DNA of 64,000 nucleotides from an uncultured bacterium. Lineage in GTDB: Bacteria; Actinomycetota; Actinomycetes; S36-B12; CAIYMF01. Both the position numbers and the translations under genes were made by a program. Shown here in pieces: positions 19,328-23,518 of the stretch. The DNA lies in the NCBI GenBank assembly GCA_903927265.1, contig CAIYMF010000152.1, positions 1 to 64,000 on the forward strand, read 5' to 3'. Every line of letters begins with the position of its first letter. Positions within the stretch are counted from its first letter, which is position 1. The notes beneath the pieces are model-generated. The model saw only the letters and a list, made by a program, of their open reading frames with translations, was not told the DNA's origin and ran no database searches.

Positions 19328-21496
19328 TCACGAATTGCGGGGCGCCCGCCCCACAACCGTCTCCGACAGAGTATCAGGCTCCTCGGCGGCCTCCCACTCA
19401 CGGGACGCCGTACCGGGCACGAGCATGCGACGGAGCCGACGACCTGGCGTGAGACCGGTCACACACGCGTTCTCGACCTCGCTTGCCAATGCCCACGCAC
19501 GGTCACCTTGCACCTGCTCGGCGGTCTCCGGTGCGTAGAGCACGGGGCTGACTTCGGCTGCGAGAGCCCGGACCGGCTCGGCGATCGGAGGCGGCAGATC
19601 ATCACTGATGGGATCGCGCGGATCACCCACGCGGTCGGGCGAAGCATCCGGGGGCAGTCTCATGCCAGCCTCTGTCAGGCACCGCATCGCCCAATTCCAT
19701 GCTCCGATGACACGCCGTTGCGCTGAGCCTCGACCCAGCCGTGCCCGCTCGCGCCGACGGAGCAGCGCGACCAGAAGGAGCCACAGGCCGACGAGCGCCG
19801 CGAGGGTGACCACCATCAGCAGGGTGCGCAGAAGAGAACTGGACGAGGCTGACCCTTGATTCCCCTCCCCTGTCGGACTCGGCGTCGATGACGATGCCGT
19901 CGAACCGCCCGTTGCTGTGGACGACGGTGAGGCAGTCTCTGCTTGAGGTGCCGTCGGTCGCACGTAAGCCGGTCGCCCTGCCTCGCGATCCTGTGGGGAG
20001 GGCTGGAACGCCACCCAGCCGATTCCCGCGAGGCGCGCCTCAGCCCACACACTGGTGTCCGGCCCATGCACCACGGTTCCCGACACCTTCACCTCGGGCA
20101 GAAATCCGATGCACAGGCGAGTGGGAATTCCCCACGACCTCGCAGTCAGCGCAAAGATGGCGGCGTACTGCTCCTGAAAGCCGGTTCGGTCAGCCAGTAC
20201 TAGGTCGTAGTCGTCAAGCGTGCGCCCCGGCCCTTCCAGACCCATATCGCGCGGCGGGGCCGCGGTGTACTTCTTCGCACGCATTGCCTCGGACAGGGCA
20301 ACCAGCCGCGACCACGTCGACGTGCCTGCATCGGCGGCGACCGTCGTCGCCAGTTTCGCCATCGCTGGCGGCAGGGCAGCCGGAAGTTGGGTTGACGGGT
20401 CTCCGCGGACGAGTGATGGCTTTGCGGTTGCCAGCTGCTTGTCCGTGACGACGGGCACCGCGTAGCGCACTTCGAAGCGCTGACCAATGGGCGTAATCGC
20501 AGAAATGATCACTCCCGACAGCGGCTCGACGCGCACCGGACTCGGACCGAGCACCTGCGTCACTCGCTGCGGCACCGGAACCCAGGGGCCCGGCAGTCCG
20601 GCACCCACTTCCAGTTGAATGCGACCCTTCGACACACGACTCGGCGTTCCACCGGGGTCGGGCGCAACGCCTCCATCGGCACCCCGGTAATAGATCGGCA
20701 CGACCCACCCCTCGCCGTTGTACTGGTGCATCGAAATCCAGATGGGTCGGCTGGCCCTGACCGGTGGCAACAGAGTCATGAGTTCGCGCGTGGCTTCATT
20801 GGGCAGGGTCTGCCAGCGAGTCGCTTCGGTCAGCGGGTCACGCACGTCGAAGGGAACCGGCAGCGGCAGCGGTCGTTGCGCACTGACATCCACCAGACGG
20901 GGTGGTTCGTTCATCAGCGCATCCGCGACTTGGCCGGCAGCGAAGGCCACCAGCCCGACGGTCACGAGCGCGACTCCCGACCAGACCACGGCACCCGCCG
21001 AGGGCAGCACGGCCGCAGATCCGCCTCGCCCAGCACCTGTCCAACTGCCGACTACAAACAGCAAGAGCGCAAGAGAAACGGCAACCCCCACTGCGAGCAC
21101 CAACGATCCATCCGATCCGGCAAGCCCAATAAGCAACACCACCATCAGCGCCAGAATCGGTGGAATCACCGCCAACGCCGGCCGCGGAGATGAAACCAGA
21201 AACTGTCCCGCCCACGCACTCGCGGCAATGAATACGGCGATCACCGAGAGCACTCCCGGTGACACGACCGAGGTCACCACCTGACCGGCCACACCCGCTC
21301 CGAGAACTCCGATGAGGCCCACCCATGCGCCAGCGCTGACACAGATGAGTCCGGTGATGATGGCGGCCGGCACCAACAGCAGAGCAGTCGCGCCGATTCC
21401 GATCGACTGCTGGCAGCCGAATGCCACCAACACCACGGGAATCAACGCAACAAGGTGCACTGCCCACTGTTCACCTGTCTTGGCACGGCCGCCCAT
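19328..21496 (-). CDS. DUF3488/transglutaminase-like membrane protein, catalytic triad apparently lost
   Basis: 722 residues. About seven hydrophobic helices (residues 11-190) form the DUF3488/TgpA-like membrane part, followed by an extracytoplasmic domain and a transglutaminase-like core at about 380-505. One more membrane helix lies near 560-590, followed by a cytoplasmic tail. The core is recognisable (ARSWGIPTRLCIGF, GIGWVAFQPSP). However, the catalytic Cys position is Q441 (GFQEQYA), the His position is S482 (SVWAEARL) and the acid position is Q498. It is probably a non-enzymatic member. Its ATG shares a base with the DUF58 stop (TAATG), and moxR lies upstream in the same operon. Confidence 0.82.
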   Translation of the reverse strand: MGGRAKTGEQWAVHLVALIPVVLVAFGCQQSIGIGATALLLVPAAIITGLICVSAGAWVGLIGVLGAGVAGQVVTSVVSPGVLSVIAVFIAASAWAGQFLVSSPRPALAVIPPILALMVVLLIGLAGSDGSLVLAVGVAVSLALLLFVVGSWTGAGRGGSAAVLPSAGAVVWSGVALVTVGLVAFAAGQVADALMNEPPRLVDVSAQRPLPLPVPFDVRDPLTEATRWQTLPNEATRELMTLLPPVRASRPIWISMHQYNGEGWVVPIYYRGADGGVAPDPGGTPSRVSKGRIQLEVGAGLPGPWVPVPQRVTQVLGPSPVRVEPLSGVIISAITPIGQRFEVRYAVPVVTDKQLATAKPSLVRGDPSTQLPAALPPAMAKLATTVAADAGTSTWSRLVALSEAMRAKKYTAAPPRDMGLEGPGRTLDDYDLVLADRTGFQEQYAAIFALTARSWGIPTRLCIGFLPEVKVSGTVVHGPDTSVWAEARLAGIGWVAFQPSPQDREAGRPAYVRPTAPQAETASPSSTATGGSTASSSTPSPTGEGNQGSASSSSLLRTLLMVVTLAALVGLWLLLVALLRRRERARLGRGSAQRRVIGAWNWAMRCLTEAGMRLPPDASPDRVGDPRDPISDDLPPPIAEPVRALAAEVSPVLYAPETAEQVQGDRAWALASEVENACVTGLTPGRRLRRMLVPGTASREWEAAEEPDTLSETVVGRAPRNS

Positions 21497-22563
21497 TACG
21501 GTGCCGCCACGTCAACGAGTGCCCTCGCGTGCGCCACCTCAATGACGCCGCCCATCGGACGTGCCACACCCGGTGATCCGCCCACTCGAACCGTGGTTCG
21601 TGCGCCCCAGGCCGAGCCTGAGGGCCCTCGACTTCCGGTGACCAGCACGACACTTCCCTCATCGAAACGACGAGTCGAACCAACCTCGCTCACGACCTCG
21701 ACGCGGGACAAGAGATCGAGCACACCCGCATGCCGTCCCCCACCGGCACGGGCGGATTCACCCGCCGTCGTCGTGAGGTCAACAGCGATTCCGGTGAGTG
21801 CCGCTGAGATGGCGACTGAGGCGGCCACATCGACGGCTTCCTCGAAATCGCTTGCACTCGCGTACGACGCTGCCGACACGTCGAGGGCCACGTGAACACC
21901 CGGGCGTCGCGATTCGACGTGCTGCTTGACCATCAAGTTTCCGGCTTTGGCCGACGACCGCCAATGAATGTGTCGCGGCTCGTCACCTACGACGTATTCG
22001 CGCAGAGTCGATACGTCGGTATCACCGGACATCACACTGGCGCGCTGCTCACCTTCGCTTCCCAACAGTGACGCCACACTCACCGGATACACCCGCGGAA
22101 TGACGATCACTTCCACGGGAGGCACGCGGGTCACCACCCGGCGCGCAAGCAACCACGCATCGACCCGCTCAACCGCCCATGGCCCCATGAGCAGCGGACC
22201 TCGGCTGCCGGTAGGAATCGCAATCGCAGCCACCGCGGGTAGACCCGGCCGCAAACGCGGAAGGCCGACGACGTCAGGACCTACTCCCCCATGTCGCCTC
22301 AAAAGCATGCCGCTTAGTGGGCGAGCTCCGTGATCAAGTAGCGCGACATCGAGAGTCGCGGGCACGCCGCGAGGCACTCGCAACGCCTCAGGTGGCGTTA
22401 CTTCGACCCGAGTGCGGAAAGCGACAGACAACACCGAGACCAACAAGAGAAACAGTAATCCGCCGGCAACGGCCACGAGTTCTGGAAGTCGCAGTCCGAT
22501 GGCGGCACCGACGACAAACAGGCAAAGGCCACCGATACCGATGCCCCTCGACGACAGTCGCAT
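21496..22563 (-). CDS. DUF58-family protein
   Basis: 355 residues. Two N-terminal hydrophobic helices, then a domain with the DUF58 signature EPRHIHWRSSAKAGNLMVKQ and a von Willebrand A-like strand GVHVALDVSAASYA. DUF58 proteins occur in a conserved trio with MoxR ATPases and transglutaminase-like membrane proteins; the trio is thought to act in envelope protein assembly or stress, but the molecular task is not established. It follows moxR by four bases. Confidence 0.88.
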   Translation of the reverse strand: MRLSSRGIGIGGLCLFVVGAAIGLRLPELVAVAGGLLFLLLVSVLSVAFRTRVEVTPPEALRVPRGVPATLDVALLDHGARPLSGMLLRRHGGVGPDVVGLPRLRPGLPAVAAIAIPTGSRGPLLMGPWAVERVDAWLLARRVVTRVPPVEVIVIPRVYPVSVASLLGSEGEQRASVMSGDTDVSTLREYVVGDEPRHIHWRSSAKAGNLMVKQHVESRRPGVHVALDVSAASYASASDFEEAVDVAASVAISAALTGIAVDLTTTAGESARAGGGRHAGVLDLLSRVEVVSEVGSTRRFDEGSVVLVTGSRGPSGSAWGARTTVRVGGSPGVARPMGGVIEVAHARALVDVAAP

Positions 22564-22567
22564 GGCC

Positions 22568-23518
22568 TCAGGCCTGGGGTGCGGGTGTCGCCGCCACCAC
22601 CCGGCTGATCACCGCGGCACTGGCTCCGAGACCGGCCTCAACATCGGTCAGCAGCAGTCGGTGGGCCAACACGGGAACGGCAAGTCGCTGCACATCACCG
22701 GGGGTGACGTAGTGGCGCCCTTCGGAAGCAGCGAGCACACGCGAGGACCGCAAGAGGCCGACGCTGCCGCGTGGACTCGCACCGAGGCGCACCCCTGGAA
22801 CCGTTCGGGTCGCCGACGTGAGCCGGACGATGTAATCCATGACCGACACGGCAACGTGCACCGACGCTGCGTTGGCCACCATCGCGGCCACATCGGCCTC
22901 ACTCGCCACTGCGGCGAGCGCATCGAGGCGAACCCCACCGTGCAGGTTGGCGAGCACTTGGGTTTCGGCGGCAAGATCGGGGTACCCGACCGACACCATC
23001 ATCAGGAAGCGATCGACCTGCGCTTCGGGCAACGGGAACGTACCGTCCATCTCGACCGGGTTCTGTGTCGCGATCACCATGAACGGCGAAGGCACGGTGT
23101 ACGACACCCCATCGACGGTGACGGTGCGTTCCTCCATCACCTCTAACAACGCACTTTGGGTGCGCGGCGACGCCCGGTTGATCTCGTCAGCCAACACCAC
23201 GTGCGCAAAAATCGGGCCTGGGTGAAACTCAAAGCGGCCCGCATCCTGGCGGAATACCGAGACACCGGTGACGTCACTGGGCAGCAGGTCGGGCGTGAAC
23301 TGAATGCGGTGCCACGACATTCCCAGCGTGGCCGCGATACTGCGCGCGAGCGACGTCTTTCCTACGCCCGGCACATCTTCGATCAACAGATGACCCTCGG
23401 CCAGCAGACAGACCAGTGAGAGATCGATGACCTCGGCCTTGCCCTGAATGAAACCGGCGATGTTCGTAGCTACGGTGCGAAAGTGCGATTGAAACTGCGC
23501 GGCCTCTTCCGGAGTCAT
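22568..23518 (-). CDS. MoxR-family AAA+ ATPase
   Basis: 316 residues, the usual MoxR size. Walker A is EDVPGVGKTSLA, Walker B is VVLADEINRASP, and sensor 1 is MVIATQNPVEMDGTFPLPEAQ. A C-terminal lid domain follows (RLGASPRGSVGLLRSSRVLAA). MoxR ATPases are chaperone-like partners of DUF58/VWA proteins. It is the first gene of the three-gene operon; near-identical direct repeats lie 58-118 bases upstream of its start. Confidence 0.92.
   Translation of the reverse strand: MTPEEAAQFQSHFRTVATNIAGFIQGKAEVIDLSLVCLLAEGHLLIEDVPGVGKTSLARSIAATLGMSWHRIQFTPDLLPSDVTGVSVFRQDAGRFEFHPGPIFAHVVLADEINRASPRTQSALLEVMEERTVTVDGVSYTVPSPFMVIATQNPVEMDGTFPLPEAQVDRFLMMVSVGYPDLAAETQVLANLHGGVRLDALAAVASEADVAAMVANAASVHVAVSVMDYIVRLTSATRTVPGVRLGASPRGSVGLLRSSRVLAASEGRHYVTPGDVQRLAVPVLAHRLLLTDVEAGLGASAAVISRVVAATPAPQA

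Follow-up and report, generated by a model that had tools for sequence, protein, structure and literature searches.

A predicted catalytically inactive yet conserved TgpA-type transglutaminase domain in a MoxR-DUF58 gene trio of an uncultured member of Candidatus Nanopelagicales

The DNA window analyzed (the whole stretch of 64,000 nucleotides) contains a moxR gene, a DUF58 gene, and a gene coding for a transglutaminase-fold membrane protein, adjacent and in one direction, and this locus raises the question of what the third protein does when all three catalytic positions of its transglutaminase domain are replaced. The source genome was assembled from a metagenome and belongs to the order Candidatus Nanopelagicales. 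Its closest relatives with a name are assemblies of freshwater actinobacteria, one from Lac Pavin ranking first (85% protein identity). The third gene is an open reading frame (ORF) of 722 amino acids that runs from ATG to stop codon with no internal stops. Its start codon shares one base with the stop codon of the DUF58 gene (TAATG), and moxR ends four bases upstream of the latter gene, so that the initial annotation was right in describing the third gene as intact, in frame, and coupled to DUF58 and moxR. Pfam assigned AAA_3 to the first protein, DUF58 to the second, and Transglut_core to the third. The order moxR, DUF58, third gene was the same in all orthologues with enough flanking sequence. 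The features of the trio are listed in Table 1.

Table 1. Features of the MoxR-DUF58 trio, with positions in the window and the basis of each assignment.
Feature	Position	Strand	Basis
Third gene, 722-amino-acid membrane protein with a predicted catalytically dead TgpA-type transglutaminase domain (Q441/S482/Q498)	19328..21496	-	ORF, Pfam, alignment, model
Bundle of transmembrane helices at the N-terminus (residues 7-195; seven helices modelled)	20912..21478	-	Model, low to moderate confidence
Extracytoplasmic TgpA-like region, residues 218-509, transglutaminase core included	19970..20845	-	Model, TgpA profile and fold matches
Codon of Q441 (catalytic Cys position; start of helix 441-454)	20174..20176	-	Alignment, model
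Codon of S482 (catalytic His position)	20051..20053	-	Alignment, model
Codon of Q498 (catalytic acid position)	20003..20005	-	Alignment, model
Pro/Ser/Thr-rich disordered linker, residues 510-551	19844..19969	-	pLDDT below 50 over residues 516-554
Last transmembrane helix, starting at residue 552, and helical C-terminal domain in the cytoplasm, ending near residue 692	19421..19843	-	Model
DUF58 protein, second gene of the trio; Asp at the MIDAS position kept (DVSAA)	21496..22563	-	Pfam, motif reading
First gene of the trio, coding for a MoxR-type AAA+ ATPase with intact Walker A, Walker B, and sensor 1 motifs	22568..23518	-	Pfam, motif reading

Transglut_core (Pfam PF01841) matched residues 426-499 of the window protein above the cut-off (E 8e-11). 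Alignment with a live paralogue encoded by the same genome placed GFQEQYA, DTSVWAE, and FQPSP of the window protein opposite GYCEQFA, DAHAWPE, and FEPTP, respectively. Together with other relatives possessing Cys, His, and Glu (C/H/E), this alignment bears out the earlier assignment of the catalytic Cys, His, and acid positions to Q441, S482, and Q498. One of the closest known systems is TgpA of Pseudomonas aeruginosa (PDB 6g49 and 6g4h; PMC3507681), a membrane protein composed of TgpA_N and Transglut_core that is active as a transglutaminase in vitro (PMC3507681). When the orthologues were combined into a profile, it matched TgpA (6g49; 7.5e-11) with the same three columns opposite its Cys, His, and Asp. 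In an AlphaFold2 model of the window protein, the core reached a pLDDT of 90-97; Q441 is the first residue of the nucleophile-carrying helix of the fold, S482 lies in the His-carrying strand (481-489), and Q498 directly follows strand 493-497. TgpA (6g4h) was the sole significant PDB match of this model (Foldseek E 1.8e-9; Z 22.3, rmsd 3.2 over 258 residues), indicating that the fold has been kept, as anticipated from the sequence, and a second, independent model of a Leifsonia relative gave the same TgpA fold match. Furthermore, TgpA and the window protein have the extracytoplasmic fold in common, follow the same layout from membrane bundle through periplasmic domain and last helix to cytoplasmic tail, and are each encoded by the third gene of a co-transcribed set of three, but TgpA keeps Cys-His-Asp, of which the window protein has none. 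The window protein would thus be a relative of the TgpA-type transglutaminase family rather than an enzyme of that family. The label DUF3488/transglutaminase needs one correction: Pfam detected TgpA_N (DUF3488) not in the window protein itself but in some relatives (2e-11 in G018 and 5e-11 in one Bifidobacteriaceae copy). No NCBIfam family was found for any third protein. The C-terminal helical domain (residues 552-692) weakly resembled HEPN-type four-helix bundles in both models, which may be chance, as the score of the window model (Z about 6) is no higher than helical bundles can reach by chance.

Two trivial explanations of the missing triad were rejected. A sequencing error does not account for it, since the same Q/S/Q combination was retrieved in the other species of the genus (86% identity), where the initial annotation had proposed to look for it, and since 18 of the 166 genomes of the order, belonging to three families, contain an orthologue (more than 470 bits), all of them lacking the triad. 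Similarly, a pseudogene is not supported, given the intact ORF and the strong selection on the core. As for a relocated active site, which according to the annotation could involve C462 or C28 together with H477, C462 and H477 are a feature of this genus only, and C28 falls within the first transmembrane helix, so that neither combination holds. Across nine orthologues, there was no invariant Cys or His column. In addition, 50 of 57 inactive relatives have no Cys at all in the extracytoplasmic region of approximately 330 residues, and all 15 live relatives have exactly one. Residues such as G439, Q443, A445, R453, R460, W494, and F497 are nevertheless invariant among the dead cores despite an identity of about 25%. 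Between the window gene and that of the sister species, the core (residues 401-510) had a dN/dS of 0.029, against 0.19 for the rest (membrane bundle, 0.146; remaining extracytoplasmic region, 0.15; C-terminal part, 0.25) and 0.163 for the gene as a whole. The core had a lower dN/dS than the rest in five of five dead pairs, namely the window pair and four further pairs of relatives, the values of the latter being rough, with many synonymous changes in some. The absence of the triad from the orthologues, the absence of any extracytoplasmic Cys from most of them, the strongest constraint on the core, and the unchanged fold together support the view that the domain is catalytically dead yet kept.

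The source genome encodes three MoxR-DUF58 trios: one with a live C/H/E protein, the dead one of the window, and one without a transglutaminase domain. The live trio (contig 166) consists of MoxR, DUF58, and a TgpA-type protein matching both TgpA_N (9e-56) and Transglut_core (8e-29). The domain-less trio (contig 194; L034:4188-7533) consists of MoxR, DUF58, and a third protein of 406 amino acids that displays the membrane bundle, a Thr/Pro-rich linker, the last membrane helix, and the cytoplasmic tail; third proteins with this architecture are also present in the sister species and in a different family of the order (L035 and L043). A profile of the C-terminal region of the dead lineage (residues 560-722) matched the domain-less third proteins (2e-12 and 7e-12), and the live paralogue at 0.001 only. 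In all three kinds of trio, the Walker A, Walker B, and sensor motifs of MoxR are intact, so the ATPase is presumably active in each of them. The DUF58 proteins differ: the Asp at the MIDAS position is kept in 37 of 38 live trios versus 12 of 31 dead ones (lost in 19 of 31). This suggests that DUF58 and the enzyme domain have both drifted from the ancestral chemistry in the dead trios, and that a DUF58 protein lacking this Asp may no longer be a metal-dependent adaptor.

The history of the inactivation was followed in trees of the third protein and of its partners. With the triad columns masked, a tree of 103 third proteins separated 58 live from 45 dead ones by a single change, along a weakly supported dividing branch (46), and taken alone it may leave room for a few independent losses. 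Single-gene trees of MoxR and of DUF58 each separated the live trios from all others with a support of 100. In a combined MoxR and DUF58 tree that included 20 live trios of other Actinomycetota classes, the dead and domain-less trios grouped into a single clade (SH-aLRT 100) embedded in live trios of several classes of the phylum, and the domain-less trios fell inside the dead clade at 97. These partner trees were built without the third gene, and the supports of all trees are SH-aLRT values from short searches; one live Bifidobacteriaceae locus (L202), which formed a long branch with the distant outgroup in the first MoxR-DUF58 tree, was omitted from the later ones. Such a topology is most simply explained by one inactivation in a duplicated trio, before the carrier groups diverged, after which the TgpA-type domain would have been kept as a noncatalytic module and later deleted as a whole in one nested lineage. 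The dead clade takes in Microbacteriaceae and the bifidobacterial PFNA trios with their tgm gene as well, so the dead type, occurring across the order, Microbacteriaceae, and Bifidobacteriaceae, is no lineage-specific oddity.

Taken together, sequences and models point to a dedicated MoxR-DUF58 trio, the third protein of which probably lost transglutaminase catalysis long ago and retained the domain as a noncatalytic binding module outside the membrane. A binding or scaffold task, presumed in the initial annotation, would be in line with this. The ligand of the dead domain, possibly a secreted or cell-wall partner, would be bound at the former substrate face or at a conserved region beside it. 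The cytoplasmic C-terminal domain would dock DUF58 and MoxR, and ATP-driven remodelling by MoxR would act on the dead-domain receptor or on its cargo. The system may hence be an assembly or export chaperone rather than a crosslinking or proteolytic enzyme. Still, the domain-less trios show that at least one descendant lineage can do without the domain, and this makes an essential receptor less likely. They also give some ground to a different, rather unlikely explanation, namely that the third protein acts mainly via its membrane part and its cytoplasmic C-terminal domain, anchoring and regulating MoxR-DUF58, and that the dead domain is a spacer or stabilizer kept only for folding and in the course of being lost. 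Indeed, third proteins with membrane helices and a related C-terminal domain but no transglutaminase domain have MoxR-DUF58 operons of their own, in this genome and in another family, and these nest inside the dead clade. However, a mere spacer is not expected to be the most constrained part of its gene (core dN/dS of 0.029), nor to retain invariant residues, such as those listed above, at such low overall identity.

The residues that replace the triad bear on another explanation, which we regard as improbable: that the domain carries out chemistry without a Cys-His-acid triad, for instance with a bound metal or with the side chain of a Gln, Glu, Ser, or Thr. Within the order, the combinations at the Cys, His, and acid positions were Q/S/Q, Q/N/Q, Q/N/H, E/L/A, Q/L/A, Q/I/A, and E/I/A; the remaining matches in the order that were read were C/H/E, except for one R/V/D form (L125/L197). 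In Microbacteriaceae, Cys is replaced by Gln or Glu, His mostly by Thr, and the acid by various residues. In favour of such chemistry, a polar residue (Q, E, S, or D) almost always occupies the Cys position, and some dead lineages keep His (A/H/E, S/H/E, and D/H/D forms). Against this, closely related families differ in their replacements and Leu, Ile, Ala, or Phe have come to stand at the His and acid positions, unlike in a re-invented active site, and the orthologues of the window protein have no invariant Cys or His column. Finally, relaxed decay, either towards a pseudogene or as the recent loss of a paralogue made redundant by the live C/H/E enzyme of this genome, is scarcely credible for a gene that has an undisrupted frame, has stayed coupled, is shared across the genus and several families, shows a dN/dS of 0.16 overall and far less in the core, and belongs to an old inactive lineage. 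Two other cases deviate in their own manner. In a branch of large-genome actinobacteria (L149 and L154-L156), only the Cys is replaced (by Ser or Ala), with His and Glu kept, which is possibly an intermediate stage of inactivation. The R/V/D protein of L197, belonging to Nanopelagicales family f4, is a very divergent third protein in a MoxR-DUF58 trio.

It had been suggested at the outset that the locus bears on what MoxR-DUF58-transglutaminase trios do. This holds in that the trio has a dead member that has been kept; it does not extend to trios in general working without catalysis. In a class-wide survey anchored on DUF58 (120 regions), 39 regions had a transglutaminase fold downstream, comprising 35 C/H/E and four dead ones, the latter being a lower bound, as the survey covered the best-matching DUF58 proteins listed and the DUF58 proteins of dead trios are divergent. 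Given that live trios are common and that the same genome has one, the dead form is a separate, ancient, and specialized paralogous trio and not a general rule. MoxR-DUF58-transglutaminase trios are widespread, and the occurrence of dead, intact, and domain-less versions in one genome separates the needs of the ATPase system from the role of the enzyme and makes the task of the trio testable by simple domain deletions.

Several precedents exist for a degenerate enzyme domain retained for binding. The C39-like domain of HlyB is a dead peptidase domain kept for cargo recognition (PMC8277102). Like the window domain, it is degenerate and part of an ATP-driven membrane machine, in which this papain-like cysteine-peptidase domain has become a cargo-binding, chaperoning unit; yet it is cytoplasmic, belongs to an ABC transporter, and has no family-level homology to the window protein, so that the comparison is an analogy only. 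Similarly, inactive peptidase domains in MoxR-vWA ternary systems have been proposed to be peptide binders (PMC7159879). Erythrocyte protein 4.2 (EPB42) and Rad4 are inactive transglutaminase-fold proteins (PMC10318531) that share the fold without catalysis, protein 4.2 being among the fold matches of the model (Z 6.4), but they are eukaryotic, soluble or peripheral, and not associated with a MoxR system.

The dead trio also has relatives in Bifidobacteriaceae, the genomes of which were recognized with CATCCGGCATTACCACCC, presumably a Bifidobacterium 16S genus probe; it gave ten matches, one of them in another family. A large membrane Transglut_core copy was readable in 14 of 15 Bifidobacteriaceae genomes, and in all 14 copies (among loci L165-L182 and L199-L203) Cys is replaced by Ser, His by Thr, Glu, Gln, or Ala, and the acid by Tyr or His; Cys and His are kept in other proteins with a transglutaminase fold from these genomes. 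One locus was read whole. It encodes a kinase, a Big_9/fn3 protein, MoxR, and DUF58, followed by the dead transglutaminase, an ORF resembling a phosphatase, an LRV protein, and an FHA protein, and its gene order is that published for PFNA. The PFNA operon has been described as pkb2-fn3-aaa-duf58-tgm, its Tgm being called a transglutaminase and presumably a cysteine protease (PMC8430577, PMC6803598). That reading has to be corrected, as Tgm lacks all three catalytic residues in every copy read; no report of inactive transglutaminases in MoxR or PFNA operons was found in the open-licence literature. Tgm and the window protein fall in the same inactive MoxR-DUF58-third gene clade and both lack the triad. 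However, the PFNA trio is preceded by a kinase and an Fn3 protein and followed by a phosphatase and an FHA protein, neighbours that the window trio lacks; the upstream neighbours of the latter are RibF and TruB instead of a Ser/Thr kinase and a fibronectin type III gene. The window trio is therefore a relative of the PFNA core and not a PFNA operon. As a tentative generalization, there may be two kinds of actinobacterial MoxR-DUF58 machine, one driving a live extracytoplasmic transglutaminase and another, anciently diverged, driving the same membrane scaffold, in which the domain is dead and acts as a transmembrane binding module powered by ATP; one branch would have dropped this domain altogether. 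PFNA would belong to the second kind, in which case the transglutaminase signalling role proposed for it would be wrong.

The dead type is also present in Microbacteriaceae, at 40-odd loci including those of Leifsonia, Plantibacter, Mycetocola, Salinibacterium, Microcella, and Okibacterium; the scan of named genomes behind this number required Gln or Glu at the Cys site and reflects presence, not frequency. These loci have an Fn3-type protein upstream and often an FHA protein downstream. In six of them (L063, L073, L090, L091, L093, and L095), the dead trio is followed by an FHA-containing ORF of approximately 1,070-1,500 amino acids, which resembles FtsK/EssC, the ATPase of type VII-like secretion systems.
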